Source of the DNA: Blattamonas nauphoetae
Lineage: Eukaryota > Preaxostyla > Oxymonadida
DNA length: 64,000 nucleotides
Assembly: GCA_033064195.1 (NCBI GenBank)
Contig: JARBJD010000006.1
Span: 620,001 to 684,000, forward strand
Direction: 5' to 3'
The notes beneath the pieces were generated by a model, which ran no database searches, was not told where the DNA came from, and worked only from the letters and a program-made list of their open reading frames with translations. A program made the position numbers and the translations under genes. Below are positions 26,757 to 47,645 of the stretch, one piece after another; the stretch's first letter is position 1; every line of letters starts with the position of its first letter.

Positions 26757-27079
26757 CACTGGAATCTCGGAAGTGATGATCTTAAAGTATGGTTTGATCG
26801 ATGTATCTCGAGAATCACTAAGAAAAAACAATATTATACAAGAATAGCAGGTTGTTCTGATTGACTAATCTAATCTTCATCGCTGTGCCGACGCAGACAT
26901 GGCAGTGCATCCTCTTTCGGAAGCAGTGGCTCGTTTTGTCGGAGAGGACTTTGTTCAATCTCTGATCACTTTCCTCCAACTGGCTCTTGACTGTTTTCCT
27001 CTGTCGGCTGAAGCTCTTCACTTGAAAGAAGAGGGAAACGATCTTTCTCGGTTGCTGAGGACACTTCAGTCAGAAATGA
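22880..27079. repeat. Near-identical block shared with 31470-35670
   Basis: From about 22880, inside gene C, through its 5' end and about 320 bp of upstream DNA, the sequence matches the D copy with only a handful of differences that I can see by eye. On the other side of about 22880 the two genes differ much more often. The abrupt change in divergence marks a recombination or conversion boundary. Confidence 0.8.
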
Positions 27080-28317: not shown

Positions 28318-31300
28318 TCAGTGTGTCCCTATCTGCACGTTTTCCTCAACTGTATCACCCGAATCAGTCAGAGTGCACAGAACAGACCACACTGTCGACA
28401 AGGTTGGTCGGTCGTCGGGATCCAGCTGAAGGCACGACGAGATCACATCAACCATGTTCTCATGAATCCCATCCATCTTCGGAAGCACTCCGGTTCCAAT
28501 CTGACGCTGAGCGTTGATCCCATCCAGCTCCCCGAACGGCACAAGACCAGTCTCAATTTCCCACAAGATCAGGCCAAGACTAAAAACTGACGCTTTCGAT
28601 CCATCAACCACTCTCCCAAAGTCCTTCTCTTCTTCCGCCTTCGCAACTTCTGGTGCTCTCCATCGCTGACCATCTTTCGATGCAGACACTTCCACTTCTC
28701 CGCCAGTTCCCTCAACTGCCGCCTGAGCAATCGTCTGTTTCGGCTCTTCTGTCTTCAGACACACATTCCCATGACCATCGAACATCACCCAATGCGACGA
28801 CAGCTTCCGAAGAATGTCTGTCGATCGATTCGCACTCGCCACTTTCATCAGTCCAAGTGCCAGCTGACGACGAACAACACACTTCGGCACCATCAGCGAT
28901 TTCTTCACATGAAGAGCGTTGTACAGCGTGTCCTGTTCTCGCACAATCGACAGCTCCAACTTGTGCCCACACACCAACGCTTCCACAAGCGACTCATGAC
29001 TCGGCGCGGACGACATCGACCCATCGTTCTCGTGGGTAGAGTTCTTCATCGAGGAAGCTGTCATGGAGTCAATGAGGCTTCGAGCTTGGACATTCTGGTT
29101 CGTTGGATCCAGAATCTCCAGTTTCTCGTCTTCAATTGGCAGAGCGTCTTGTTCTTGCATCTCTGCCTTCACTTCGCTTTGTGTTGCTTTTCGGCGTCGG
29201 CAGCAGATCCACAGAAGCAGAACGAGCAGGACGAGTGCGACGAGAGACACAATCAGCGGAATCAGCCAGGGAAGCGTCTTCTGCATCGCCAACGACTGCG
29301 CTTGTTTCGAACTCAGTTTCAACGAGAACGCTTCAGTCCGACCAGTCTCTCCGAATTCCACATGTCCCACCCACTCCCTCTTCTCCCCCAATCCCTCAAA
29401 CTCGCTCGACTTCACTTCCATTCTCATTGAAGTTTCGGTCCATTCCGTTGTTCGTTCAGTGGAGAGAGAAATTCGCACCGGTTCAGTGTTCGACGACGAT
29501 GTGTTCTCAGAAACAACCAAAGTCAGCCCACACGGAATCAGAAGAGTTCCGTTCAGTTCAAGTCTGAATGTCTCCGTTTTCTTGTCAAACAACGATGAGC
29601 ACGATTTCACTGTCAATGTGGGGATGAAGAACGCATTCGACACAACCGAGCCGTTGTTCCTCGTAACAACACATTTTGAGTCGGTCGAGATCCAAAGTGA
29701 CGACGACTCCAGCGGATCTGTGCCCAGCTCAATCAAACTCTCTTTCTCGCAAACAATATTCCGCTGCAAGCTTGGGAAGGCTGGCGAAAGCGCGTTGTTC
29801 CCAACTGATTCTCCTCCAATCATCTTTACTGTCGACGACACAACATGCATTCCTCCCTGCGACAGATGAGAATATGTCGACAACGATGACTCGAACGAAC
29901 ATGACACAATCTCAATCAGCGACGATGTCCAGAAACACAGCGAATCGTCGTTTGGAGATATCTTTTCTTTCGTTCCGTTGAACACACAATTCTGCAGTTC
30001 CACACGAGATTCGGTCTTCCCATTCCCTTCAAATGACATCAGAGTTCCAGCTGAGCATTCTCGATGCGCAAGACTGCTCACATTCACACTCGAAAAATGA
30101 GAGAACGAGAGAAGCGTGTCGGAGAAGGAAGTCGATGACAGATCAATCTTTCCCAATTCAACTGATCCGCCAGTCACTTCGAGAAGCTTCGAGTGGAGTG
30201 GAGATGACGACGAGAACGAGCAGCTCGTCACTGTCAGCATCCCACTTCGAGATTCGAGCAGTACCACTGAGCGACCAGACGAGAGCGAGAAAGCGAGAGA
30301 GTCGAGGTGGAGAGAATGAGCGAGAATCGCTGCTTCGTTCACCAGCTTTCCAGATCCCAACACGTCCACTCTGCTCTTGTCTCCTCCCTTCGACACAATT
30401 TCTGTTTTGTCCTGCCGAAGATCCACCTCTCCCTTCAGCTGAGCTACATCCACAACTGCGATCGTGCAGAGAACACTGTCAGCCAAATGAAGATCTGCCT
30501 CGTCCAGACTCGCACATGGGAACGTCACGTCTCCACACCACACACCATCTCGACCGATGGAATGGACCAGAACGGTTTGAGCGCGGAAGAATGTTAAATA
30601 GAGAAGAAGTGTGGGCGAACGGAAAGGAGAGCCAACGATCTCGTTCTCGTCGAGTGACTCGTACAAATCATCCTCGTCTCCTCCTCGCGAAGGGAACTCC
30701 GAGTTCGGCACACATTCAATCACATTCGCCAAGTTCCGGCCATGCACAACAATTCGTGTTCCATTCTTCCCTTCAGCGTTCAACACATTCACAAAACGAA
30801 CACGGTCCAGTCGAATTCTGTCGGCGCCATGAAGCACAACAACACCAGCCGAGCCTGCCTGCACTGTCATATCCTGGAACAACACTTCGAACATCTCAAT
30901 TTCGATTCCACTCTTTCCATTGGAAGCGAGAGAAGTTGACGAGGAAGAAGACACGATTGGATGGAAGATGTCAGTTGGAGACGCTTGCACGGTGAAGGAA
31001 GAAGAAGTGATCACCAGAGTCCCAGATTCACATTCCACAAGAGGAACACTCATCGAAAGCTGAATCGTGAATTCGCAGCCAGTGATCGATGAGTGTGCAG
31101 AGCGCGAAACAAGGCGGCAGAGATGGTTGTCGATCGTCCACACAAACTTCGTCGTCGAGAATTCAATCGATCCTTCGTCAGCCACTTCCACAAACGGGAT
31201 TCCGGTCTCAATCGATCCCTCACCATGTTTCACTTCAACTTTCTCCACAGGACTCCCTCCATTCTTCGACATCATCAGAACGATGGCCTGCCTCGTCACT

Positions 31301-34300
31301 GTGCCCGTCTCGAAGAAGAACAGGGTTGACATGAGATTGATCGGAATCGGCAGGTACTCGCCTGTGTCTGTTTGTGTGTGGATGTACGGAAGATAGTACG
31401 ACAACGAATTGAAATACAATCGAGACCCAGACATGGCTGGTGGTGGATAATGACTGTTGTCCTCGTTCACTTCCATCGTTGGCGGGAGGAGATTGCGAGA
31501 GAGTTGGGGATAGCCTTCCACTTCGACGTGTCGATACTGACCATCTTCATCGAATGACCGACCGCTCAACGAATAGCGGGAGGCACACAAAGAGGAGATA
31601 AGCTCCGTTATATCTGGGTGAGTGTCGGCGAATGTTTTGGAGAAGAAGAAATCAGATCCCTCAGCAAACGAATTGTTGAAGTATTTCTCTGCATAGAAAG
31701 AAAAATAGCTAGTCGTGACATTTCCATCGAAATATGCTCCAGATCCTTGCCTCGCCTTGCACCCGGAAATAGATGTATAAGAAAAATCTTTCATAAAGAT
31801 CATCCAAGGACCCATCCCAATCGTGATATAAGAGGTTCCTTCGTTGCAGATGTAAAGACCACCGCCCAAGTCAGCTGAGCAGTCGATGATATGCTGCAAA
31901 GACAGATAAAGAGCTCCATCTCCACAGTTCGTATTCTCAATGCACACTGCTCCTCCTTTGTGGGTGGCCGAACATCGAAAGAATGGGGCTGAAGAGGCTG
32001 TGAATGAACAGTTCTGGACAAAGATGGCACCACCGTTCGCTGCGTGGCAGTCCACAATCGGGATGTGGTTCACAGTGATAGATGTATCCTTTGCGTTGAG
32101 AAGTGCCCCGTTTTCAGATGTGGAGAGGTTGGTCACGCAGCAGACAGGGATAGAACCCATTACTATCAATGAAAAAGAGCCTCCTCTCGTTTCGAAGCAG
32201 GAGTGAGTTGAAAAAGCTATTGAGACGACTGATGTATTTAGAAGCGTGATTGATCCTTCAGACTGGCAGAATGCTCTGTTTGAAAGACCACCGTCGGAGG
32301 AAAGGATCGACTGGCTCACATACAGAGTTGAGGAGGTGTCGATGGTGATCATTGGGTCCGTCTGATTCGTGCTGAGAATGAGAATGCATGATGAGATGGA
32401 GATGGTCGAGGATGATTTCATTGTGAAGAGTGTTCCATCTGTCTGTGACGACTGAGTCAGTGCAGAGATTGGTGAAGTGATAGTCGATGCGATGGAGACA
32501 GACCCTCCATTGAACTCGATCGGTCGAAGAGACGTCATTTCCTTTCGAGTGGTGCAGAGAGTGAAATCGAAATTGGTGTTTTCACCGAAAATGATGGAGA
32601 GATCCAGTGCCTCCACATCACTCTGCGTGAGAGAGTCATAACAGTATGCGATTTGGCGATAAAGGTTAGAGTTATCATACACGTATAAAGAAGACGGAGG
32701 TTGGATGGAGTCCGACCCAGCACTGTCATCGACAATGTGAGGCACCAAACTGGCCGATGACAAGGATAATGGGAATGCGGAGGAAAAAGCGTCGACAGTG
32801 ATTGTTGAAAGGTGGATATCATGAGCGACGGATTCGTCTCGGCCACGATTGAGATAGAAGAGGGTTTTGGTAAGAGTCACATCGGATAGATCTGTGACAT
32901 TCAAATGGATGGCTCCACACAATCCAGTTTTCGAGTGACAAGACGAGAATTGGGCACTGATGTCGAGAGAAGCAGCGTTTTCACAATCGAGTGCTGCTCC
33001 TCCCAAACCACTCGTTCGTGTCAGATGACGGAAGACGACTTCTCTCAGTTTCAGACTTCCATCAACAACTGAGACCACACTTGATGAGCTTTCGATTTGG
33101 TGGAAGAGAGACATTTGAATTTGGACGACAGCAGCGCCGGAAATCGAGGTCAGCGAGCATTTCATCGACGAGAGAGTGTCGAAGTGGCAGAATGAGAAGG
33201 AGATTGTTCCGGCGGAGAACACGAAAGGAGGCGACGAAATGCCATCCACTCCAGTCATCCTCAGATTGTTCAAGAATAGCGACGCGTCCACAGTACACTC
33301 CACAATGGGAGCACCAGTCAGAGGAACCAGATTGAGATTGGTCAGCTTGATAGTACCGGGATTGTCCAAAAGCAGAGAGAACGATGATGACGGTTCGGTT
33401 GAGTCCCAATCTTCCTTTCGATAGTATCCACAGATGGTGGGAGAGCTGGATGAAATAATTCGAACTTCTCCGAAAGTGCCGGTTCCGAGTTTGATTTCTT
33501 TCGACTCGTTCGGTCCCACTGTCTGAAGAGCGGCGGAGAGAGAACCACACGGCGACGAGAACGAACAGTCCTCCCCTTCTTCACCACTCGCCACAAACAG
33601 CACATCATCTGTCACTTTTGAATCTCTCGATTGTGTGCACCCAAATGCTGCTGAGACAGAATTGAGTGGAAAGGCGATGGCCCAATCCGGATCTTGTTCT
33701 GCCGTGTTTCCTTCGAAGTGGCAGAACAAAAGCGATGCAGCAGACATGGCATACAGTCCACCAGACATACTCAATGCCGTGTTCGACACAAACTCGGAAT
33801 AAGAGACAGCGCAGTGAGAGACATAGGCACCTCCTCCCCAGCTATCCGCCTGGCACAAAATGAAGGACGAGCGAGTGATGAAATGCAAGCCAGAAGTGTA
33901 GATGCAGATGGCACCGCCGTTGGAGACAGACGTGCATCCGATGAATTTGCTTCCTTCGATTGTGAGTGTTGTGGAGGCTTCGGAAGTCGTCGATGAGATA
34001 AGGATGGCACCACCAGCTCCGTGTTCGCTCTGGCATTCGACGAACGTGCTGTTGGTGATGGAGAGAGGCGCTTGTGAGTAATGTCTAATGGCTGTGCCTC
34101 CAGTTGAAAAGGCACCTTCCGGATCAGTCGGTTCTTCCGTCATCTTTGTGAACGAGCAGTCGATGTATGTGACGGGGTTGGCTGTTGTGGCATATTTGAA
34201 GCGGGGTGGAATTGCCAGAGTGTCAAGAGTGGAGACGGACCAATACGAGTGCGATGGATCTCGCATGAATTCCCCTCCCTTGAAAGTGTAGGGGGGAGTG

Positions 34301-35343
34301 AAGAACTCAAGTTCCTTTGTGATGACGTCAGGAAAGGATGATGTGAGAAATACGTCTTTACTGGTCCAGGGCTTCGAGATCGACGAGCTGATCGAGTTGT
34401 TCTGGATATGGAACGATCCGCCAATGTTGGGGTCCTGAACAATCGTGTTTTGGAGTGCCCCAACAGAGTCAGACACACTCACGCCAACGCAGGTCTGCGA
34501 GAGTCGTCGAGCCGGAATCAGAGGGCGAGATTTCGACGAGGTCAAGTTCACAACATTCCATGATTCTATGCATGTTGAAATCTCACTGTTCTCCACAAAT
34601 GATGACTGTGACGGAGTAATGTCGAGGAGCACGCTGTTTCCGGATGTCAGTTGGTGAGATGACAGTTCGATTGATTTCACCACAACAGAAACACAGAAAC
34701 TTGCATCCGATGACATTAACTTCGTCAACGGTGCAATGTGACCATTTGGAGATTCGAATCGGGTCCGAGAAACCACGATCATGGATGGCGATGCCAAAGA
34801 CGAATCGGATGTCACAATCAGAGGTGACGTCCATCCACAAGACACAATCGTACAGTCCCTGATCGACAGTGATGATGAGACAACAGTCGACAACGAAAAT
34901 GATGTTCGGGAGGACTCGTCATGTCGGTTCGACGAAAGAGGAGATGTCTCTTTTGAAGTCAATTCGAGTTGAAACGATGAAAGACAAAGAGTGGAGTTCA
35001 ACATATCAAGAATACTCCCCGACATGTGTGTGCTGTTCTGGCCATGTTTCGAAGACGATTCAGGTCCATTCAACCCAAAATCGACATTCGATGAATGTGT
35101 CAGTTTCGTTGACACGGTTCCAACGAAATCGGTGCAACAGGAGTGCAATGCGAGTGAATCAGCAAAATAAAGATTTGACTCAAGTTCGTAGCGTTTTTCA
35201 TGATGTGGACCAACAGAATTCTTCCATTCATTGTTGAGAAGTGAATGCAGCGAGATCGGTTGGGAAGTGAGGGAGCGGAAATCGGTTCCGATTGCAACAG
35301 ATATGACTTGAATGACGATCAGGGCTAATCGTCCGCTGAACAT
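28318..35343 (-). CDS. Giant membrane receptor D: tandem paralogue of C, mosaic
   Basis: A 2341-aa single-exon protein with the start ATG at 35341-35343 and the same signal peptide as C. Architecture as for C: signal peptide, GGAI-type beta-helix, Cys/PC entry motifs, membrane-proximal domain, TM helix (IPLIVSLVALVLLVLLLWI), CCRRR and a pseudokinase tail with RWRAPEV, LGLILWEIETG and DPDDRP. The first about 1290 residues are almost identical to C. The remainder, including the segment NEDNSHYPPPAMSGS, instead resembles the third copy (compare NEDSSHYPPPAMYGS there, versus YESDSLSEPPTVPGP in C). D therefore appears to be a recombinant of its neighbours. The frame is intact and I see no reason to doubt that it is expressed. 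Confidence 0.9.
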   Translation of the reverse strand: MFSGRLALIVIQVISVAIGTDFRSLTSQPISLHSLLNNEWKNSVGPHHEKRYELESNLYFADSLALHSCCTDFVGTVSTKLTHSSNVDFGLNGPESSSKHGQNSTHMSGSILDMLNSTLCLSSFQLELTSKETSPLSSNRHDESSRTSFSLSTVVSSSLSIRDCTIVSCGWTSPLIVTSDSSLASPSMIVVSRTRFESPNGHIAPLTKLMSSDASFCVSVVVKSIELSSHQLTSGNSVLLDITPSQSSFVENSEISTCIESWNVVNLTSSKSRPLIPARRLSQTCVGVSVSDSVGALQNTIVQDPNIGGSFHIQNNSISSSISKPWTSKDVFLTSSFPDVITKELEFFTPPYTFKGGEFMRDPSHSYWSVSTLDTLAIPPRFKYATTANPVTYIDCSFTKMTEEPTDPEGAFSTGGTAIRHYSQAPLSITNSTFVECQSEHGAGGAILISSTTSEASTTLTIEGSKFIGCTSVSNGGAICIYTSGLHFITRSSFILCQADSWGGGAYVSHCAVSYSEFVSNTALSMSGGLYAMSAASLLFCHFEGNTAEQDPDWAIAFPLNSVSAAFGCTQSRDSKVTDDVLFVASGEEGEDCSFSSPCGSLSAALQTVGPNESKEIKLGTGTFGEVRIISSSSPTICGYYRKEDWDSTEPSSSFSLLLDNPGTIKLTNLNLVPLTGAPIVECTVDASLFLNNLRMTGVDGISSPPFVFSAGTISFSFCHFDTLSSMKCSLTSISGAAVVQIQMSLFHQIESSSSVVSVVDGSLKLREVVFRHLTRTSGLGGAALDCENAASLDISAQFSSCHSKTGLCGAIHLNVTDLSDVTLTKTLFYLNRGRDESVAHDIHLSTITVDAFSSAFPLSLSSASLVPHIVDDSAGSDSIQPPSSLYVYDNSNLYRQIAYCYDSLTQSDVEALDLSIIFGENTNFDFTLCTTRKEMTSLRPIEFNGGSVSIASTITSPISALTQSSQTDGTLFTMKSSSTISISSCILILSTNQTDPMITIDTSSTLYVSQSILSSDGGLSNRAFCQSEGSITLLNTSVVSIAFSTHSCFETRGGSFSLIVMGSIPVCCVTNLSTSENGALLNAKDTSITVNHIPIVDCHAANGGAIFVQNCSFTASSAPFFRCSATHKGGAVCIENTNCGDGALYLSLQHIIDCSADLGGGLYICNEGTSYITIGMGPWMIFMKDFSYTSISGCKARQGSGAYFDGNVTTSYFSFYAEKYFNNSFAEGSDFFFSKTFADTHPDITELISSLCASRYSLSGRSFDEDGQYRHVEVEGYPQLSRNLLPPTMEVNEDNSHYPPPAMSGSRLYFNSLSYYLPYIHTQTDTGEYLPIPINLMSTLFFFETGTVTRQAIVLMMSKNGGSPVEKVEVKHGEGSIETGIPFVEVADEGSIEFSTTKFVWTIDNHLCRLVSRSAHSSITGCEFTIQLSMSVPLVECESGTLVITSSSFTVQASPTDIFHPIVSSSSSTSLASNGKSGIEIEMFEVLFQDMTVQAGSAGVVVLHGADRIRLDRVRFVNVLNAEGKNGTRIVVHGRNLANVIECVPNSEFPSRGGDEDDLYESLDENEIVGSPFRSPTLLLYLTFFRAQTVLVHSIGRDGVWCGDVTFPCASLDEADLHLADSVLCTIAVVDVAQLKGEVDLRQDKTEIVSKGGDKSRVDVLGSGKLVNEAAILAHSLHLDSLAFSLSSGRSVVLLESRSGMLTVTSCSFSSSSPLHSKLLEVTGGSVELGKIDLSSTSFSDTLLSFSHFSSVNVSSLAHRECSAGTLMSFEGNGKTESRVELQNCVFNGTKEKISPNDDSLCFWTSSLIEIVSCSFESSLSTYSHLSQGGMHVVSSTVKMIGGESVGNNALSPAFPSLQRNIVCEKESLIELGTDPLESSSLWISTDSKCVVTRNNGSVVSNAFFIPTLTVKSCSSLFDKKTETFRLELNGTLLIPCGLTLVVSENTSSSNTEPVRISLSTERTTEWTETSMRMEVKSSEFEGLGEKREWVGHVEFGETGRTEAFSLKLSSKQAQSLAMQKTLPWLIPLIVSLVALVLLVLLLWICCRRRKATQSEVKAEMQEQDALPIEDEKLEILDPTNQNVQARSLIDSMTASSMKNSTHENDGSMSSAPSHESLVEALVCGHKLELSIVREQDTLYNALHVKKSLMVPKCVVRRQLALGLMKVASANRSTDILRKLSSHWVMFDGHGNVCLKTEEPKQTIAQAAVEGTGGEVEVSASKDGQRWRAPEVAKAEEEKDFGRVVDGSKASVFSLGLILWEIETGLVPFGELDGINAQRQIGTGVLPKMDGIHENMVDVISSCLQLDPDDRPTLSTVWSVLCTLTDSGDTVEENVQIGTH

Positions 35344-35670
35344 CACTGGAATCTCGGAAGTGATGATCTTAAAGTATGGTTTGATCGATGTATCTCGAGA
35401 ATCACTAAGAAAAAACAATATTATACAAGAATAGCAGGTTGTTCTGATTGACTAATCTAATCTTCATCGCTGTGCCGACGCAGACATGGGAGTGCATCCT
35501 CTTCCGGAAGCAGTGGCTCGTTTTGTCGGAAAGGACTTTGTTCGATCTCTGATCACTTTCCTCCAACTGGCTCTTGACTGGTTTCCTCTGTCGGCTGAAG
35601 CTCTTCACTTGAAAGAAGAGGGAAACGATCTTTCTCGGTTGCTGAGGACACTTCAGTCAGAAATGAAAGA
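31470..35670. repeat. Near-identical block shared with 22880-27079
   Basis: Partner of 22880-27079. Differences are few, for example at about 34084, 34405-34500 and in the small upstream ORF. The boundary at about 31470 coincides with the short variable segment before YFNSLSYYLPYIHTQ. Confidence 0.8.
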
Positions 35671-36533: not shown

Positions 36534-39500
36534 TCAGCGTGTCCCTATCTGCACGTTTTCCTCAACTGTATCACCCGAATCAGTCAGAGTGCACAGAACA
36601 GACCACACTGTCGACAAGGTTGGTCGGTCGTCGGGATCCAGCTGAAGGCACGACGAGATCACATCAACCATGTTCTCATGAATCCCATCCATCTTCGGAA
36701 GCACTCCGGTTCCAATCTGACGCTGAGCGTTGATCCCATCCAGCTCCCCGAACGGCACAAGACCAGTCTCAATTTCCCACAAGACGAGGCCAAGACTAAA
36801 AACTGACGCTTTCGATCCATCAACCACTCTCCCAAAGTCCTTCTCTTCTTCCGCCTTCGCAACTTCTGGTGCTCTCCATCGCTGACCATCTTTCGATGCA
36901 GACACTTCCACTTCTCCGCCAGTTCCCTCAACTGCCGCCTGAGCAATCGTCTGTTTCGGCTCATCTGTCTTCAGACACACATTCCCATGACCATCGAACA
37001 TCACCCAATGCGACGACAGCTTCCGAAGAATGTCTGTCGATCGATTCGCACTCGCCACTTTCATCAGTCCAAGTGCCAGCTGACTCCGAACAACACACTT
37101 CGGCACCATCAGCGATTTCTTCACATGAAGTGCGTTGTACAGCGTGTCCTGTTCTCGCACAATCGACAGCTCCAACTTGTGCCCACACACCAACGCTTCC
37201 ACAAGCGACTCATGACTCGGCGCGGACGACATCGACCCATCGTTCTCGTGGGTAGAGTTCTTCATCGAGGAAGCTGTCATGGAGTCAATGAGGCTTCGAG
37301 CTTGGACATTCTGGTTCGTTGGATCCAGAATCTCCAGTTTCTCGTCTTCAATTGGCAGAGCGTCTTGTTCGTTCATCTCCGCTTTCTCTTCAAGTTGCGC
37401 TGCTTTTCGGCGTCGGCAGCAGATCCACACAAGCAGAACGAGCAGGACGAGTGCGACGAGAGACACAATCAGCGGAATCAGCCAGGGAAGCGTCTTCTGC
37501 ATCGCCAACGACTGCGCTTGTTTCGAACTCAGTTTCAATGAGAACGATTCAGTCCGACCAGTCTCTCCGAATTCCACATGTCCCACCCACTCCCTCTTCT
37601 CCCCCAATCCCTCAAACTCACTCGACTTCACTTCCAATGTCAACCGCGTTTCCGTCCATTCTGTTGTTCGATCAGAGGAGAGAGCAATTCGCACTGGTTC
37701 AGTGTTCGACGACGATGTGTTCTCAGAAACAACCAAAGTCAGCCCACACGGAATCAGCAGCGTTCCATTCAGTTCAACTCTGAATGTCTCTGTCTTCTTG
37801 TCAAACAACGATGAACACGATTTCACAGTCAATGTGGGGATGAAGAACGGGTTCGACACAACCGAGCCGTTGTTCCTCGTAACAACACATTTTGAGTCGG
37901 TCGAGATCCAAAGTGACGACGACTCCAGCGGATCTGTGCCCAGCTCAATCAAACTCTCTTTCTCGCAAACAATATTCCGCTGCAAGCTCGGGAACGCTGA
38001 CAAAAGGGCGCTGTTCTCGATTGTGTCACCTTTTGACAATTTGGCGATCGACGACACAACATGCAGTCCTCCCTGCGACAGATGAGAATATGTCGACAAC
38101 GATGACTCGAACGAACATGACACAATCTCAATCAGCGACGATGTCCAGAAACACAGCGAGTCGTCGTTTGGAGATATCTTTTCTTTCGTTCCGTTGAACA
38201 CACAATTCTGCAGTTCCACACGAGATTCGGTCTTCCCATTCCCTTCAAATGACATCAGAGTTCCAGCTGAGCATTCCCGATGAGCAAGACTGCTCACATT
38301 CACACTCGAAAAATGAGAGAACGAGAGAAGCGTGTCGGAGAAGGAAGTCGATGACAGATCAATCTTTCCCAATTCAACTGATCCGCCAGTCACTTCGAGA
38401 AGCTTCGAGTGGAGTGGAGATGACGACGAGAACGAGCAGCTCGTCACTGTCAGCATCCCACTTCGAGATTCCAGCAGTACCACTGAGCGACCAGACGAGA
38501 GCGAGAAAGCGAGAGAGTCGAGGTGGAGAGAATGAGCGATGTTAGCTGCTTCGTTCACCAGCTTTCCAGATCCCAACACGTCCACTCTGCTCTTGTCTCC
38601 TCCCTTCGACACAATTTCTGTTTTGTCCTGCCGAAGATCCACCTCTCCCTTCAGCTGAGCAACATCCACAACTGCAATCGTGGAGAGAACACTGTCAGCC
38701 AAATGAAGATCGGCCTCGTCCAGACTCGTACACGGGAACGTCACGTCTCCACACCACACACCATCTCGACCGATGGAATGGACCAGAACGGTTTGAGCGC
38801 GGAAGAATGTTAAATAGAGAAGAAGTGTGGGCGAACGGAAAGGAGAGCTTATCGCCTCGTCCTCGTCGAGTGACTCGTACAAATCATCCTCGTCTCCTCC
38901 TCGCGAAGGGAACTCCGAGTTCGGCACACATTCAATCACATTCGCCAAGTTCCGGCCATGCACAACAATTCGTGTTCCATTCTTCCCTTCCACGTTCAAC
39001 ACATTCACAAAACGAACACGGTCCAGTCGAATTCTGTCGGCGCCATGAAGCACAACAACACCAGCCGAGCCTGCCTGCACTGTCATATCCTGGAACAACA
39101 CTTCGAACATCTCAATTTCGATTCCACTCTTTCCATTGGAAGCGAGAGAAGTTGACGAGGAAGAAGACACGATTGGATGGAAGATGTCAGTTGGAGACGC
39201 TTGCACGGTGAAGGAAGAAGAAGTGATCACCAGAGTCCCAGATTCACATTCCACAAGAGGAACGCTCATCGAAAGCTGAATCGTGAATTCGCAGCCAGTG
39301 ATCGATGAGTGTGCAGAGCGCGAAACAAGGCGGCAGAGATGGTTGTCGATCGTCCACACAAACTTCGTCGTCGAGAATTCAATCGATCCTTCGTCAGCCA
39401 CTTCCACAAACGGGATTCCGGTCTCAATCGATCCCTCACCATGCTTCACTTCAACTTTCTCCACAGGACTCCCTCCATTCTTCGACATCATCAGAACGAT

Positions 39501-39599
39501 GGCCTGCCTCGTCACTGTGCCCGTCTCGAAGAAGAACAGGGTTGACATGAGATTGATCGGAATCGGCAGGTATTCGCCTGTGTCTGTTTGTGTGTGGAT
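36534..39599 (-). pseudogene. 3' half of third tandem receptor gene, severed by an insertion
   Basis: Encodes the back part of a C/D-type receptor: end of the beta-helix, membrane-proximal domain, TM helix (LVALVLLVLLVWI), CCRRR and a pseudokinase with RWRAPEV, LGLVLWEIETG and DPDDRP. It matches D very closely. The frame runs out into the inserted element at 39600 and has no ATG at its new 5' end. Its missing front is at 42736-46692. The host coding lengths of the two parts (3066 and 3957 nt) sum to 7023 nt, exactly the coding length of gene C, and both parts are open throughout. The insertion is thus the only visible lesion and is probably recent. Confidence 0.85.
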
Positions 39600-39686
39600 C
39601 ACTCTGCAGTGATCTGATTCAGCCGAGCTACGAAGAGTGAGTGAGATCAATCTCTGAAGTGAGTCGAACACAACAATGGGTTAGAT
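39600..39686 (+). repeat. Left terminal inverted repeat of DIRS-like element
   Basis: The outer tip (about 39600-39632) forms a small hairpin (GATCACT / AGTGATC around CTGC, using the host GAT). The inner part (about 39633-39686, ending in gggttaga) is repeated inverted at 42660-42712. The tip itself is repeated inverted only in the internal complementary region. Confidence 0.85.
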
Positions 39687-39724
39687 CTCTGAATTTTAAT
39701 TTGCATTTTAATTTGAACACAACA

Positions 39725-40693
39725 ATGACTCAAGAAGAGCAGTTTGGTGAAATCTTTAAGGCGAGATTGCAGGAGCTTCGCAATTTGGCTGTCCAGGTGT
39801 TTACAAGCGGGCTTTCACCCAACTCCGAAGACGCTCAAAAATTTCAACAGATGGCGTTGCCACCCTACCTCTATCCCATTGCCGGTGCAATTTTCCATCT
39901 TTTACGACTATTTCTGGCGACAATTGATTGTGACTTCGGACTGGATAGCCAGGACTGGGAGGGACCGATCGGAGGTGCCCTGGTCCCAAATGTAGTCCAG
40001 CAGCGAATTTTGACCCCTCAACCGTTTCGTCAAAGGCAGAGTGATGATGTACATACGCCGAATATCGATAATGACGGATCGATGACACCCTGGATCGTCC
40101 GGACAACACCGCCTCCAGAACAAGTCGTCTTCCAGCCTGCACCACTTCAACCGCAGATGGGCATCGCTCCAACTCAAGCTGGACTTGGAGCAGACCTCGA
40201 ATATATGCAAGCCAGGGTAGAAGATGTTGCAAGGGAGCTCCCGATCTTCAACTGGGTTGCTCAGGCTCTTGCGACTCTGAAGGAGGTCCTGAAATTGGCC
40301 GAAGGGCTTCAGCTGAATATGGATATCCTTAGCAAATATGTTACAGAACATACACGGGATAGTGATGGTTTATTGGTAGGCCTTAAACATGAGGCCTTCC
40401 ACGCGGTCAGGTTAAGTATTGGCCTGTTCATAGCTGTCCGACAAGGCATGCCCTCTGTGCAAGCATTGGCGTTGATGGGGCTGAAAGCAGCGGAGCTGGT
40501 ACAACAGGTGGAACTGGCTCGCAAGGTCAATCTCGGTCTTGTCGAGCCGTCAATTGGGGAGGATGAGCTGGAACAGGAGAACGTTCGACGGCAGGAAGAG
40601 CTCCTCCAACAGGAGATGGAGCAAACGATTCGGGCAAGGGAGACTGCAGAGGCAGTCAGAGATGGACCACAATTTCGGTCTTTTCAATGGTGA
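39725..40693 (+). CDS. Gag-position ORF of the DIRS-like element
   Basis: A 322-aa protein from the ATG at 39725, about 40 bp inside the left repeat. The frame is open further upstream into the repeat without an ATG. It is predicted mostly helical: a helical N-terminal part (LQELRNLAVQVF, IAGAIFHLLRLFLATI), a Pro/Gln-rich middle (about residues 120-170), further amphipathic helices, and a C-terminal Glu/Gln/Arg coiled-coil-like tail. There is no zinc knuckle, protease or polymerase motif. By position it corresponds to the first ORF (Gag) of DIRS elements; the sequence itself is not one I recognise, so the assignment rests on architecture alone. Confidence 0.55.
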   Translation: MTQEEQFGEIFKARLQELRNLAVQVFTSGLSPNSEDAQKFQQMALPPYLYPIAGAIFHLLRLFLATIDCDFGLDSQDWEGPIGGALVPNVVQQRILTPQPFRQRQSDDVHTPNIDNDGSMTPWIVRTTPPPEQVVFQPAPLQPQMGIAPTQAGLGADLEYMQARVEDVARELPIFNWVAQALATLKEVLKLAEGLQLNMDILSKYVTEHTRDSDGLLVGLKHEAFHAVRLSIGLFIAVRQGMPSVQALALMGLKAAELVQQVELARKVNLGLVEPSIGEDELEQENVRRQEELLQQEMEQTIRARETAEAVRDGPQFRSFQW

Positions 40694-40854
40694 ATATGTT
40701 TTCAGACAGGAGGATGAAGGGCGGAGCCAGCAGTAATACACAGGAAAGCAGATCAAACACCTCAATTGCTTCTTAAGTTGGCGTCATCGCCCCAACGATC
40801 ACATCACAAACCACATCAGACTATCACCAGTCACACATCATAACACAACCATCA

Positions 40855-41550
40855 TCTTTTGGCATCAACGCCACAACATCATCTCAACAGTCAATGCTGG
40901 GATGCACTTCACAACATACTGCCCTCTGGCCTCCGAATGGCATCAACGCCGTGGATGGCAGAGGAGGAAGGTGCGGCCCTCGTTGGAGAGGGATATTGGC
41001 CGATGCAATTCAGAATGCCCGTGTTGTAGTAGATATCAGGGGAGAGAGATAGAAAAGAGGAGTCATCGGACATCTCTAGGATGTCGTCAACCACAATAGA
41101 CACAACAAAGTCAAACCTCATATCACAAACCACAATTTATGGCATCAACGCCACATCTACCATTCAAAACAAGTGGTTGGATACATTTCATATCATCCTG
41201 CCCTCTGACCTTCAAAGGCATCAACGCCGCAGATGGCAGAGGAGAATGTCGCTTCCCTCGTCATAGAGGGATAATGGTCAACGCAATTGGTACAGAGTAT
41301 ATTGAAGGAGATATCAGGGAATGGAGTTCAGTCTCCATCTTCATTCATTGCGAAAGGCTGTGTCAGCCACATCATACAAAGTTTTTTGCTATGAGTCGAC
41401 GATGTTGGAGGAACATGGGTCAGCAGGGTTCTTCTCGATCACCCTCCGCCAACTGAAAGGACAGTTTTTTTCCGACATTTCACAACATTGCGTCCTCTCG
41501 CCTCCGATTGGCATCGACGTCACAGGTGGCAGAGGAGGATGACAGGAATG
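40855..41550 (+). repeat. Three degenerate ~285-bp tandem repeats inside the element
   Basis: A recurring core (tgccctctggcctccg..tggcatcaacgcc..gatggcagaggagga) is found near 40918-40972, 41200-41255 and 41488-41545, spaced about 285 bp apart. Other phrases recur between cores, for example tcacaaaccac and tggcatcaacgccac at about 40860 and 41138, and a shared tail (gatatcaggg). Short open frames here have poor composition, so it is probably non-coding. Confidence 0.65.
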
Positions 41551-42450
41551 GAACTAGTGACAGGTGAAACTAACGATGTTTCGCTGTCAGTTGGTTCGTC
41601 AGTGAAGCACATTGTTTCGATGAAGTTCAGAGTTTTAGACGATGCGTGGATGGGGTCAGCATTGCTGTATCCTTGGTCAGATGCTGAACTGTCGTATGGA
41701 GTGGAATACAATGCGACTGAGTTCTCTCAAACAGTCTCGTCGACGACAGCCACTCACTTCTCCGAAGCCAATCTCGAAAAGATCATGGCAGAACCGCCTC
41801 GTCTGACCACTCCGAATCCGTTTGTTGAATATTCGGATCAGGACAAGAAAGGAGTTGTGTCGCTGTCTGGGATTGGTCTCTCTGAGGAGTACACAGTGAG
41901 GATGACTCAGTCGAAAGGATTGTCTGGGACTGAGACGATGAGTGTGTCATTCGATTCGTCTGGGAATGGAAGAATCAATGGAGTTCTTTATGGCACAGCT
42001 GGAGTTGGTGAACTTGGACTGAAATATGTCACGATTTATGAAGTGAGTGGGATGATGAATTCTTCATCGAAACCAGTTCATTTTGAGTCTGACCTTGTGT
42101 TTGAAACGATTGCTGAACTATCGCGTCTAACCAAGGTGAATCAACCCACTGTTGGATTTGTTGGACATCGCATGGTTACTGGAGAGTATTCTGTGTCACT
42201 GGAGAATATGGCAGACGATGACATCATCGACGGGAACGGACTGGAGACTATCCTTCGTGGATGCAGCATGATCCTCGGAATATGGAGTGCCGATATTGGT
42301 TTCGGCGTAGAGCAAAGTTGCTCTTGGACTTTCGGGTTTATTTTGACGGAGACGAAGAGGGCAGTGCACGATCCAGTTGGAGAACAGGAAAACGGCGAAG
42401 AGTCCATCCTCATCAACGAGGTGATGACTCCCAAGACTCACTCTTCGTAG
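41539..42450 (+). CDS. Receptor-ectodomain fragment carried by the DIRS-like element
   Basis: A 303-aa open frame from the ATG at 41539. Residues from about 15 to 230 show the same beta-sandwich repeat grammar as receptors A/B: a linker, a strand pattern like VVSLSGIGLSEEYTVRMTQ, a GRINGVLYG turn, a YVTIYEVSGM strand and a FETIAELSRLT linker (compare FVPAEPSRLTSV in A). It covers roughly two repeats and is a diverged relative rather than a copy of A or B. It has no signal peptide, TM or kinase tail. The last codons overlap the internal complementary region. Whether it is translated is unknown. It lies on the same strand as the gag-position ORF. Confidence 0.6.
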   Translation: MTGMELVTGETNDVSLSVGSSVKHIVSMKFRVLDDAWMGSALLYPWSDAELSYGVEYNATEFSQTVSSTTATHFSEANLEKIMAEPPRLTTPNPFVEYSDQDKKGVVSLSGIGLSEEYTVRMTQSKGLSGTETMSVSFDSSGNGRINGVLYGTAGVGELGLKYVTIYEVSGMMNSSSKPVHFESDLVFETIAELSRLTKVNQPTVGFVGHRMVTGEYSVSLENMADDDIIDGNGLETILRGCSMILGIWSADIGFGVEQSCSWTFGFILTETKRAVHDPVGEQENGEESILINEVMTPKTHSS

Positions 42451-42509
42451 CTCGGCTGAATCAGATCACTGCAGAGTGATCGAAGATTTAGCAGAGCGAA
42501 GAAGAGTGA
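42436..42509 (+). repeat. Internal complementary region (ICR) of DIRS-like element
   Basis: 42436-42481 is the reverse complement of the left end (39597-39642). 42481-42509 is the reverse complement of the right end (about 42707-42735). The two abut and share the three bases atc. On the minus strand this reads as right end joined to left end. Both halves run a few bases into the inner repeat common to the two termini. This overlap is what the DIRS replication model uses to join the ends. Confidence 0.85.
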
Positions 42510-42659
42510 CCACCCTCCCACCCGACAAGGAATGGTTTCAGTTGATGTGGAGTGTCTTCGCTCTGCCCTTTGGTTTTTGGTTTTGTTATTCTTTTCGACG
42601 TGATTAGACCTTGATTCGGCATGTACTCTTCTCCCTTTTCTATATGAGTCTCCCAAGGG

Positions 42660-42735
42660 TCTAACCCATTGTTGTGTTCGACTCACTTCAGAGATTGATC
42701 TCACTCACTCTTCTTCGCTCTGCTAAATCTTCGAT
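42660..42735 (-). repeat. Right terminal inverted repeat of DIRS-like element
   Basis: Inner section 42660-42712 is the inverted copy of 39633-39686. The outer tip 42713-42735 (ttcgctctgctaaatcttc + GAT) differs from the left tip, although a 24-base part aligns loosely with four mismatches. The tip is restated, inverted, at 42481-42509. Confidence 0.85.
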
Positions 42736-45700
42736 GAACGGAAGATAGTACGACAACGAATTGAAATACAGTCGAGACCCATACATGGCTGGTGGTGGAT
42801 AATGACTGCTGTCCTCGTTCACTTCCATCGTTGGCGGGAGGAGATTGCGAGAGAGTTGGGGATAGCCTTCCACTTCGACGTGTCGATACTGACCATCTTC
42901 ATCGAATGACCGACCGCTCAACGAAAAGAGGTTGCCACACAGATTGGAGAGATACTGCTCCAAATCTGGATGAGTGTCGGCGAATCTTTTGGAGAAGAAG
43001 AGATCAGATCCTTCAGCAAACGAATTGTTGAAGTATTTCTCGGCTTCGAAAGAGAACTGACCAGTTGTGGCATCTCCATCAATATATGCTCCAGATCCTT
43101 TCCTCGCCTTGCATCCAGAAAAAGCTGCAAAATAGAAGTCACTCTGAAACATATTCCAATCACTAGCCCCAATTGTGACGGAAGTGGATACTTCGCTGCA
43201 GACGTAAAGGCCACCGCCCAAGTCAGCCGAGCAGTCGACAATATGAGTCAATGAGATGGAAACATGCAGATCTTGGATATTCTGATTCTCAACACACACT
43301 GCTCCTCCTTTGGAAGTGGCCGAACATCGAAAGAATTGGGTCGAAGAGGCTGAAAATGAACAGTTCTGGACAAAGATGGCACCACCGTTCGCAGCGTGGC
43401 AGTCTGTCATCGGGACTGCGTCGAAAGAGACGATTGTATCCTTTGCGTTGAGAAGTGCCCCGTTTCCAGATGTGGTAAGGTTTGTCACACAGCAGATAGG
43501 GCAATCATAGACTGTTGTAAATTTGAAAGACCCTCCTCTCGTTTCGAAGCAGGAGTGAGTGGCGAAAACCATTGAGACGACTGATGTATTTTGAAGCGAG
43601 ATTGATCCTTCGGATCGACAGAATGCTCTGTTTGAAAGGCCACCGTCGGAGGAAAGGATCGACTGACTCACATACAGAGTGGAAGAGCTGTCGAGAGTGA
43701 TCATTGGATCTGTCTGTTTCGTGCTGAGAATGAGAATGCAGGACGTGATGGTGAAAGTGGAAGATGATTGCATTGAGAAAAGCGTTCCATCTGTCTGTGA
43801 CGACTGAGTCAGTGGAGAGCAGTGAGAGTACTCCTCCGATCGGATGGTTAAATCCCCTCCACTCTTCTCGATTGGTCTGAATGATGTCATTTCCTCTCGC
43901 GTGTTGTAGAGAGTGAAATCGAAACTGGTGTTTTCAACAATAACGGCTGAGAGATCCAGAGCTTCCACATCACTCGTGGTGAGAGAGATATTGCAGAATT
44001 GGACTTGGCGATAAAGTTGAGAGTCATCATACACATCGAATTGTGATGGAAGACGGAAGGAACCTGACTTACCAGTACCATCGACAACGTGAGGCGAATG
44101 ACTGAGCGATGACAAAGACTTTTCGAATTTGGAAAAATCATCAACAGTGATTGTTGAAAGGTGGATATCATGAGCGACAGATTCGTCTCTGCCACGATTG
44201 AGATAGAAGAGTGTTTTGGAAAAGGTAACATCTGACAGATCGGTGACATTCAGATGGATGGCTCCACACAATCCAGTTTTCGAGTGACAAGACGAGAATT
44301 GGGCACTGATGTTGAGAGCAGCAGCGCCCTCGCAATCGAGTGCGGCTCCTCCCAAACCACTCGTTCGCGTCAGATGTCGGAAGACAACAGAGCTCAGCGT
44401 CAGACTCCCATCCACAACTGAGACCACACTTGATGAACTCTCAATTTGGTGGAAGAGTGACATACGTATTACAACGACAGCTGTGTCTGAAATCGAGATC
44501 AGCGAGCATTTCATCGACGAGAGAGAGTCGAAGTGGCAGCGTTCGAAAGAGGCTGTGCCAGCGGAGAACACGAATGGAGCTGAAGAAATGCCATCCACTT
44601 CAACCATCTTCAGATTGTTCAACGACACTGACACGTCTACCGTGCTCTTCACAATGGCAGCACCAGACAGAGGAACCAGATCGAGATATGTCAACGTGAC
44701 AGTCCCCGAATTGTCCAAAATCAGAGAGAACGATGACGAGGTTTCAGTTGAGTCCCACTCGTCTCTTGGATAGTATCCATATATTGTGGGAGAGCTGGAC
44801 GCCACAATGTGAACTTCTCCAAACGAGCCAGTTCCGAGTTTGATTTCCTTCGACTCACTCGGTCCCACTTTCTGAAGAGCGGTAGAGAGAGAGCTACAGG
44901 GCGAGGAGAACGAGCAGTCTTCCCCTTCCGCACCACTCGCCACAAACAACACATCATCTGTCACTTTAAAATCACTCGATTGTGTGCATCCAAATGCTAC
45001 TGAGACAGAATTGAGTGGAACGTTGATTTTCCAATCCGGATATTGTACAGCAGTGTTTCCTTCGAAGTGGCAGAACAGCAGCGACACGGAGGTTCCGGTG
45101 TCCACCCCACCACCCATAATCAAAGCCGTGTTTGACACAAACTCGCAAAAAGAGACGACACAGGGAGTGATAGAGGCAGCTCCTCCAAATCGGTCTGCCT
45201 GACACGACGTGAAGGAGGAGCGAGTGATGGAGTGCGAACCGAACGAGCTGGTGGATAAAGCACCACCGCTGTTGACACATGTGCATCCGACGAACTTGCT
45301 TCCTTCGATTGCGAGTGTCGTGAAGGCTTCGTAATCCCTCGTCATGACGAGGATCGCGCCACCATCTCCGAACTGAGTCTTGCATTCGGTGAATGTGCAG
45401 TTTGTGATGGAGAGAGGCGCTTGTGAGTGATGACGAATAGCACTGCCGCCATACTTAAAGTTAGTATACGGGTCATACTCTTCCTCCGTCATCTGTGTGA
45501 ACGAACAGTCGATGTATGTGACGGGGTTGGCTGCCGTGGCATAGTTGAAGTGGGTTGGTGTGACCAATTCGTGGAGAGTGGAAAGTGACCAATACGAATG
45601 TGATTGAGCTTGAATGAAGTCCTCTCCCTTGAAAGTGTAGGGGGGAGTGAAGAATTGCAGCTCCTTTGTGATGATGTCAGGAAAGGCTGACGTGATATAC

Positions 45701-46692
45701 ACGTCTTTGCTGGTCCAGGGTTTCGAGATCGACGAGCTGATCGAGTTGTTCTGGAAATGAAACGATCCGCCAATGTTGTGGTCCTGGACAATCGTGTTTT
45801 GGAGTGCCCCAACAGAGTCAGACACACTCACGCCAAGGCAGGTCTGCGAGAGTCGTCGAGCCGGAATCAGAGGGCGAGATTTCGACGACGTCAAGTTCAC
45901 AACATTCCATGATTCTATGCACGTTGAAATCTCACTGCTCTCCACAAATGATGGCTGTGATGGAGAAAAGTCGAGTAGCACGCTGTTTCCAGACGTCAGT
46001 TGGTGAGATGACAGTTCAATTGATTTCACCACAACAGAAACACAGAAACTTGGATCTGATGACATTAACTTCGTTAACGGTGCAATGTGACCATTTGGAG
46101 ATTCGAATCGGGTCCGAGACACCACGATCATGGATGGAGATGCCAAGGACGAATCGGATGTCAAAATCAGAGGCGACGTCCATCCACAAGACACAATCGA
46201 GCAGTTTTGGATCGACAGTGATGATGAGACAACTGTCGACAACGAAAATGATGTTCGGGGGGATTGGTCTTGTCGGTTCGACGAAAGATGAGATGTCTGT
46301 TTTGAAGTCAATTCCATCTGAAACGATGAAAGACAAAGAGAGGAGTTCAACACAAGAAGAATACTTCCCGGCATGTGTTTGTTGGTCTGGCGATGTTTCC
46401 AAGACGATTTCGGCACATTCAACCCAAAATCGACATTCGATGAATGTGTCAGTTTCGTTGACACACTTCCAACTAAATCGGTGCAAGAGGAGTGCAATGG
46501 GAGTGAATCAGCAAAATAAAGATTCGACTCAAGTTCGTAGTGTTGTTCATGACGTGGATCAACAGAATTCTTCCATTCACTGTTGAGAAGTGAATGTAGC
46601 GAGATTGGTTGGGAAGTGAGGGAGCGGAAATCGGATCCGAGTGCAACAGAAACGATTTGAATGACGATCAGGGCTAATCGGGTGATGAACAT
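42736..46692 (-). pseudogene. 5' half of third tandem receptor gene
   Basis: Encodes the signal peptide (MFITRLALIVIQIVSVALG, ATG at 46690-46692; an earlier in-frame ATG at 46812 lies in DNA not shared with C/D) and the first about 1320 residues of a C/D-type beta-helix ectodomain. It is clearly more diverged from C and D than they are from each other, with different strands in many turns, but it keeps the GGAI/CSF pattern and the LFVASG...C...PC entry motif. The frame ends by reading into the inserted element. With the other half at 36534-39599 it makes one formerly intact gene. A truncated secreted ectodomain could still be made from this half if it is transcribed. Confidence 0.85.
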
Positions 46693-46705
46693 TAAATCCG
46701 TCGTG

Positions 46706-47645
46706 ATGGGTGTGATCACTAATCCTCGGCGATTTTCTGGTTGGATGACTTCGCTAGTTCCAAGGAGAAACGTCCTCCACGCTATACTGATCCGACAATC
46801 CCTCAAAAACATCTGGCCTTTCTCAGCTTTAAGGAAACGGAGACAATCGAGAATGCAGACTGTTCAGCAGTATTCCAGTCCCTCACTGAAGTGCTGAAGG
46901 ATGATATCAAATTCAATTACGGGATACATAATGGTTCCATATTCTTCTTTGGACAATTAATTGACTTTAGCCCATTCGGAGTGTGTCGTGTGTCAATTGA
47001 AATCCTCCACGATCTCGTCCCAACGCCAGATAACCCATGCCAAGGTTTCATTGAAGGAATGGGTGTCATTATCTCCTCGAAATATCCCAATCTTGTGGAC
47101 AAAGCGCTGGGAGCCGTCATCAAATTCTTCACTAGCGTCTTATTCCAACACTGTCTGGAAATGATTCAAGGTGGGCTTGTTCCAACTATCATCTCCGCCC
47201 TCCAACCACATCTTATGGAACCTGTTCATAAGCCACTTTATCACGATGAAGTTCTCTCGATCATCGACGTTGCACTCGCCCTGACCTCCCCCGCTCCTTG
47301 CGACGTTACAGAGGAGGTTAAACAACTCCCAAAGGACTTGTTCTTGATTCAGTTTATTTCAACGTTATTCATCCGATGCAAGGCTATCTCCGGCATCTGT
47401 GCGACAATCTCGAAAACGTCATGAAACACTATCCACTGGATTGGAAATTCTCATCAATTCTCAGTGGACTTCTTCGAATCTGTGGGCTTCATTCTGCAAC
47501 GATGAATGAACTCGACATCTCTCAAATCTCTCATTCCATCAGTTTGCTTCTCTCATCTCCACTCGCGATAGATACTTGGGATCCTGTTGCTCAGAACGTT
47601 CTTAGATATCTCCCTCGGTGGCTACTCAGCCCATGCTCACAATGA
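46706..47645 (+). pseudogene. Broken helical-repeat (ARM/HEAT-like) gene 1
   Basis: The main frame, 46723-47424, encodes a helical protein like those at 47824, 49615 and 51587 (for example LGAVIKFFTSVLFQHCLEMIQGG, split here as LGAVIKFFTSVL and CLEMIQGG; then LVPTIISALQPHL). It has no usable ATG at its front; an ATG at 46706 opens MGVITNPRRFSG in another frame. The C-terminal part continues in a third frame at 47376-47645 (LRHLCDNLENVMKHY ... LLSPCSQ). At least two frame breaks are therefore needed to read it. An unrecognised short intron could explain one, but I found no good GT-AG pair. It lies head to head with the third receptor gene, start to start, only 14 bp from that gene's ATG. Confidence 0.6.

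Follow-up and report, generated by a model that had tools for sequence, protein, structure and literature searches.

How did a 3,139-bp sequence with no visible polymerase or recombinase come to split a receptor-like kinase gene, and what kind of element is it? The question arises in a 64,000-nucleotide stretch of contig JARBJD010000006.1 (positions 620,001 to 684,000 of the forward strand, hereafter the window), where this window element interrupts a host gene on the minus strand (Table 1). An original prediction, made from the letters alone, had placed it at 39600..42735 and read it as a non-autonomous DIRS derivative. The anatomy and the autonomous relatives found in the same genome bear that reading out. 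With a probability of roughly 0.9, we conclude that the window element descends from a DIRS1-like tyrosine-recombinase retrotransposon as a non-autonomous derivative, and that autonomous DIRS elements elsewhere in the genome provide the enzymes for its movement. We call it a derivative and not a full DIRS1-like member because it has no reverse transcriptase (RT) or tyrosine recombinase (YR) of its own. The predicted end was correct, but the predicted start fell just inside the left GAT, and the true start is 39597.

As predicted, the termini are inverted, with a common inner section (70 nt, 94% complementary) and different tips. The tips beyond the inverted repeats are unlike each other and measure 19 nt on the left and 6 nt on the right. 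An internal complementary region of 74 bp (42436-42509) holds the exact reverse complements of both tips (46/46 and 31/31). Its halves overlap by 3 bp (ATC/GAT), and GAT stands at both junctions and at this internal join, also as predicted. The direct repeats that we found are internal or a consequence of the internal complementary region, whereas the terminal repeats are inverted. Chance is an implausible origin for the match between ends and internal region, given the exact 46- and 31-nt matches at the very tips and the recurrence of this design in families whose tips are different. The two long open reading frames (ORFs) of the element gave no Pfam family, so that neither a polymerase nor a recombinase is visible in these frames, which agrees with the original prediction. 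A test for a YR of its own was negative, since the 3′ part that it shares with an autonomous relative (C701; elements are named by such handles) begins at C701 position 4332, in the last codons of the YR frame. Likewise, no alignment of the window element to the RT-RNase H-methyltransferase part of C701 was found beyond the start of that part.

A genome search with the element recovered eight further copies with the same termini and different flanks. Five of these (C778, C90, C179, C167 and C125) are full length or nearly so, at 99-100% identity. The shorter copies C832, C96 and C822 are 95-98% identical and each lacks one repeat unit; C822 additionally lacks stretches close to both ends. The same search matched a truncated left end on C33. 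A pattern for the internal join, GAGTGATCGNNGATTTAG, occurred at 17 sites genome-wide and at none for the reversed control, and its GAAG form occurred at nine places, which are the eight copies and the window element.

Longer relatives were found as well, carrying, as anticipated, RT, RNase H and tyrosine recombinase. C701, C88, C46 and C55 measure 4.5-4.7 kb and C33 measures 4.3 kb; identity to C701 is 98.7% for C46 and 99.7% for C88. In alignments with the window element, C701, C55 and C33 match over the first ~1.06-1.09 kb at ~70% and over the last ~340 bp at 75-77%. The relatives have a gag-position ORF, an RT-RNase H, a weak methyltransferase match and a YR, in overlapping frames. Frames are broken in several autonomous copies, including C701 (ORF1) and C33. 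The C701 RT matched RVT_1 (PF00078) above the Pfam cut-off (84.2 bits, E 1.3e-23). The C701 YR aligned over its full length with the recombinase portion of an RT-Dam-integrase protein from an ant (P0071; 72/313, 23%, E 3e-9). Against PDB at E up to 1, all 17 of its hits were Cre or Cre-derived (best E 0.001); against NCBIfam the best match was XerA (E 2.2e-4, far under the cut-off), and no database homologue appeared among 4,176 candidates at E 0.001. Judged by its matches, C701 encodes RT, RNase H and YR. The 120 listed RT homologues in other organisms include 15 that carry PF05869 (RT + Dam), one of them with an integrase domain too, and two proteins of the oxymonad Streblomastix strix. Within the genome, searching for the recombinase returned 126 matches, counting fragments, and in the RT search 150 of 392 candidates were scored. 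A search for Dam, irrespective of DIRS context, gave 24 matches, three of them above the cut-off; several weaker ones adjoin YR matches (e.g. C29, C280 and C141). At 30 RT loci no internal regions were found in stretches of 3.2-3.7 kb, which are too short for such a search.

From family to family the tips differ and the internal region changes to match, which is what the template model predicts. The right tips CTTCGAT, CATCGAT, CAGCGAT, CGTCGAT and CAACGA(G) pair with the joins GAAG, GATG, GCTG, GACG and GTTG, respectively, so that five groups agree. A sixth, divergent group (C691, with a YR 43% identical to that of C701) has the same design with GAT: exact matches of 49 and 33 nt to its internal region overlap in TGAT, and in its left palindrome, GATCATT-CTTC-AATGATC, both stem arms are changed relative to the window element. 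In ungapped comparisons over 45 nt, left tips scored 0.96-1.0 against their own internal region and 0.56-0.71 against those of other groups (window element/C113, C701/C46 and C33), the latter values being lowered by small-indel shifts. The left-tip pattern GATCACTNNNCAGTGATC occurred at 153 genome sites, versus none for its reversed control. The first 100 of these sites formed 41 opposite-strand pairs less than 9 kb apart, with 18 sites single. Loop letters were identical in 41/41 pairs (chance agreement 0.34 per pair; reached by 0 of 20,000 shuffles), although members of one family are not independent of each other, which brings the independent cases below 41. Many pair distances in this sample lay at 4.15-4.41 kb; six were below 4 kb, five of them from the window family and one from C113. 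The agreement of tip and internal region thus holds family by family. Many of the pairs enclose a recombinase match, and the motif is a cheap finder of such elements here.

Both ends were examined in 15 elements: the nine family copies, C113, four C701-group elements and C33. The left triplet departs from GAT in C33 (GTT) and the right triplet in C96, C822 and C55 (GAC) and in C778 (GAA); first and last triplets are unequal in five of the 15. The joined flanks of 12 insertions (C701, C88 and C113 left out) were searched for uninterrupted paralogues, with matches listed from the best 40 candidates. An uninterrupted paralogous site could be read for 7/12, each with one triplet and no longer duplication. 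All four paralogous sites of the window insertion have a single GAT. GAT was found throughout in the paralogues of C90 (two), C167 (three) and C832 (two), and GAA in both paralogues read for C778. No uninterrupted paralogue was among the listed matches for C179, C125, C96, C822 and C55. C778 carries the element's triplet on its left and the target's on its right, and in C33 the order is reversed. This one-sided origin suggests what looks like a 3-bp crossover, without further duplication, that tolerates mismatch; elements with unequal first and last triplets in Table 3 of PMC3266345 fit the same picture. The expectation of insertion at GAT without duplication is therefore upheld as to the single triplet, with nothing longer, but GAT is not strictly required: the target was GAA for C778, most likely GTT for C33 and apparently GGT for C46.

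How such an element would most likely move can be framed by the DIRS-1 model (Cappello 1985 and Poulter and Goodwin 2005, both cited by PMC5633606; also PMC3266345), a replication model that is experimentally not fully proven (PMC5633606). The RNA would begin and end within the inverted repeats and would be copied to cDNA by RT provided in trans. The internal complementary region, in which both tips are joined, would then act as a template or splint for rebuilding the tips that the cDNA lacks, and the cDNA would be closed to a circle in which a single GAT separates the right tip from the left. A tyrosine recombinase, for which the inverted arms and the left-tip palindrome are the probable binding sites, would recombine the circle junction with a triplet in the genome; of the two flanking triplets, one would stem from the element and the other from the target.

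Several observations weigh against this proposal. No autonomous element with a GAAG join, which would be the candidate supplier of the enzymes, exists in the assembly, the GAAG sites among the 17 joins being the nine short copies alone. Even the nearest autonomous relatives are only 75-77% identical at their 3′ ends and ~70% in the left part. Of the C701 domains, the RNase H falls below the Pfam cut-offs (PF17917, 23.6 versus 24.8; PF17919, 25.2 versus 29.8; E 5.9e-5), as do the weak matches to Dam methyltransferase (E 0.0013) and, for the YR, to Pfam (E 0.041). The right tip separates groups less than the left: that of C33 scores 0.97 against its own internal region and 0.94 against that of the window element, and that of C113 matches its own and the window internal region equally, at 0.97. 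The triplets are not uniform either. Paralogues of C33 have GTT in two of three cases and ATT in the third, and both paralogues of C46 have GGT while both filled ends are GAT, a mismatch that could reflect later change in the paralogues. Finally, the RNA stage and the circle are steps that we infer, and circular DNA could move without an RNA stage. A Crypton-like or other circular DNA transposon would do just that, its recombinase excising and re-inserting a DNA circle without reverse transcription and the internal region being a by-product; a 3-bp crossover without target duplication demands no more than a tyrosine recombinase. Yet the relatives encode RT and RNase H, and the internal region, superfluous for DNA excision, agrees with the tips in every family examined, which makes a DNA-only element very unlikely.

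Kinship with PAT-like or Ngaro-like elements, in which a tyrosine recombinase is used too (PMC3266345, PMC6681497), would imply split direct repeats. Such repeats, as in PAT, Ngaro and VIPER, are not what the window element shows: its termini are inverted repeats, and the internal region complements both ends. There is also the weak Dam match in C701, whereas Ngaro and VIPER lack a Dam domain (PMC3266345); we regard such kinship as highly improbable. A further explanation needs no transposition at all: decayed autonomous copies might have been spread by segmental duplication. Much of the coding region is indeed gone in comparison with the 4.7-kb relatives, and three copies (C125, C832 and C822) have a disturbed ORF1. 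Against this stand the flanks, which are unlike between copies, and the element-free paralogues, which join exactly at the ends of the element for the window, C778, C90, C167 and C832, plus C46 and C33. Segmental duplication is thereby refuted for the window, C778, C90, C167 and C832; C179, C125, C96 and C822 had no such paralogue among the listed matches, and overall this explanation has next to no chance of being right.

The DIRS1-like derivation that we favor can be compared with described systems. Among the titles and abstract openings listed in open-access searches (Repbase and subscription papers lay outside the scope), no DIRS1-type non-autonomous element with a gag-position ORF and host sequence was found. 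TOC1 of Chlamydomonas is a non-autonomous member of the order with PAT-type split direct repeats, unlike the window element. TR-GAG elements are gag-only, non-autonomous long terminal repeat (LTR) elements that have likewise kept gag and lost the enzymes, but they differ by their LTRs and DDE integrase. PMC3266345 assigns TOC elements to PAT. That the order has short derivatives is clear from SIRE (PMC6681497), which is VIPER's short non-autonomous form in Trypanosoma cruzi. Unlike the window element, it has split direct repeats, is ~0.4 kb long and too short for a gag ORF, and has ~30 bp of internal sequence of its own; its mobility is left open in PMC6681497. The original prediction did not know this class to be described; since non-autonomous tyrosine-recombinase retroelements in general are known, the element is better seen as a variant than as an unknown class. 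What appears new, within the literature covered, is a DIRS1-type variant with a gag-position ORF and host sequence.

With the 28 DIRS1-like elements of PMC3266345 the window element shares inverted ends, two internal complementary regions overlapping by 3 bp, a 3-bp circular junction and the lack of a target duplication. Those in Table 3 of that paper span 3,793-6,283 bp, compared with 3,139 bp, without RT and YR, here. NTT at both termini, a common but not universal feature (23/28), is replaced here by GAT. The left tip is ~13 nt longer than the right and resembles the left extension, which PMC3266345 reports in fungi and amoebozoa only. The window element also carries host coding sequence, unlike the DIRS1-like elements published there. 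AcasDIRS1 of Acanthamoeba (Table 3 of PMC3266345) likewise has a left and no right extension, with an internal complementary region of 52-36 compared with 46-31 here, and its first and last triplets (GTT, CTT) are unequal, as in five of our 15 elements; at 3,974 bp it is listed with elements having their own genes, unlike the window element. For oxymonads the same open-access searches showed no DIRS report, and the term 'dirs' does not occur in PMC10703272 or PMC8767320. With the present elements, the hosts of DIRS come to include a probable oxymonad, and a DIRS derivative is seen to contain host coding sequence. The families whose tips differ, each with an internal region to match, allow the template step to be tested by sequence, and insertions that occurred naturally at triplets unlike GAT, readable filled and, in paralogues, empty, would allow a test of how much homology the recombinase needs.

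The original prediction did not include the ORF at 39725-40693, the threefold ~280-bp repeat, the captured fragment at 41536-42218 or the interrupted host gene. ORF1 is ~70% identical in DNA to the first-ORF region of the 4.3-4.7-kb relatives. It had no Pfam match and no homologue among 5,225 database candidates at E 0.001, so its label 'gag' rests on position. ORF1 is open from ATG in the window, C778, C90, C179, C167 and C96, with an earlier stop in the window, C778 and C167; it is disturbed near the start in C125 and C832 and truncated in C822. The threefold repeat matches C701 positions 1284-1452 at 68-71%. Sense and frame are kept in the captured fragment of 683 bp, which is 85-89% identical to the C601 and C634 genes. 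The C601 ORF encodes 2,328 aa, has a kinase match at its C terminus and is of the same kind as the gene interrupted in the window. The captured segment recurs several times on the C601 and C634 contigs, inside long genes, and this repetition within host genes suggests that capture likely ran from host to element. Reverse transcription with a template switch may have brought in the fragment, whose borders are not diagnostic: the matching border bases (ATGACAGG with C634, GACGA) are indistinguishable from the ends of the captured fragment itself. A 27-bp gap between donor and captured fragment was considered as an intron and rejected, as no GT-AG borders were seen by eye and the gap is in frame. 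For the 217 bp beyond the fragment (42219-42435), a genome search at E up to 1 gave nine matches, all copies of the same family.

Selection on the retained ORFs was considered from ratios of nonsynonymous to synonymous substitution (dN/dS) and dropped, since the ratios of ORF1 and the fragment between subgroups are near or above 1, with few changes. For ORF1, comparisons of 3.1-kb copies with C96 and C822 gave 1.28-1.52 in three cases (window-C96, dN 0.027, dS 0.018), and for the captured fragment three comparisons including C832 gave 0.81-1.86. Contrary to neutrality, C96-C822 gave 0.45 for ORF1 and 0.86 for the fragment; the fragment gave 0.32 for window-C90 (one changed codon) and 0.16 for C90-C832 (five changed codons), and the 75-codon tail of ORF2 gave 0.36 between subgroups (six changed codons). 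Changes as few as these settle little, and near neutrality of ORF1 and the captured fragment between subgroups is a fair reading. Against the autonomous C55, ORF1 gave 0.09-0.11 with dS >2; against C33, dS was not computable. Captured fragment versus host genes gave 0.38-0.52 and host versus host 0.34-0.36, the former being a mix of host and element history. The copies have diverged so little that open frames alone prove nothing.

Table 1. Features of the window element and of the gene that it interrupts (window coordinates; strand where given).
Feature	Coordinates	Strand	Remarks
Host receptor-like kinase gene split by the element	36534..46863	-	Joined flanks form one open frame, 2,397 aa; kinase match
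Whole element, both GAT counted	39597..42735	+	3,139 bp; same ends in other copies, different flanks; 4 paralogous sites join at a single GAT
Left GAT, crossover triplet	39597..39599		GAT in 14/15 elements examined; GTT in 1
Right GAT, crossover triplet	42733..42735		GAT in 11/15 elements examined; GAC in 3; GAA in 1
Left-tip palindrome GATCACT-CTGC-AGTGATC	39597..39614		Pattern GATCACTNNNCAGTGATC
Left inverted terminal repeat	39616..39685		70 nt, 94% complementary to 42660-42729
Right inverted terminal repeat	42660..42729		70 nt, pairs with 39616-39685
Internal complementary region, left half	42436..42481		Exact reverse complement of 39597-39642, 46/46
Internal complementary region, right half	42479..42509		Exact reverse complement of 42705-42735, 31/31
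ORF1, gag position, 322 aa	39725..40693	+	From ORF list; C-terminal tail shorter than in autonomous relatives
Threefold ~280-bp repeat, third unit partial	40829..41540		Repeat families D1-D4; resembles start of autonomous RT ORF
Captured host receptor-like kinase gene fragment, portion ahead of kinase match	41536..42218	+	85-89% to C601/C634 genes
ORF2, chimeric, 320 aa from TTG	41488..42450	+	Encloses captured fragment; open in 9/9 copies
217 bp between captured fragment and internal complementary region	42219..42435		Matches limited to 9 family copies
Empty site in tandem paralogue	31221..31543		98% identity over 323 bases spanning the junction

The interrupted gene is one of three tandem paralogues on the minus strand, each a receptor-like gene of ~2,380 aa (19737-26864, 28321-35451 and 36534-46863), the other two being uninterrupted. 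Its joined frame is 84.6% identical to the 2,377-aa product of 28321-35451 over 2,342 columns with one gap. Kinase genes are among the largest gene families of the oxymonad Monocercomonoides exilis, according to PMC8767320. One may speculate that the family is a transducing DIRS: an enzyme-less family with a gag-position ORF might express its host receptor-kinase segment (ATG at the border) as a chimeric ORF, shuttle receptor segments around one of an oxymonad genome's largest gene families and itself insert into such genes. We consider this unlikely.

Other elements showed features of their own. C125 has ~520 bp of other sequence just inside its left tip, after position 45 (L013, about 1083-1602). 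C113, of 3,539 bp, is a non-autonomous relative with the same ends and an internal DDE_3 transposase-type ORF (PF13358, E 2e-12; L017, 1777-2286), which is either a nested insertion or a capture. The C33 element sits within a repeat that has dozens of listed matches, mostly 79-86% identical. In a DIRS-like element at C269:15812-23950 (L025), 8.1 kb separate the tip from the internal motif and the recombinase contains stops; this element likely holds a larger insertion.

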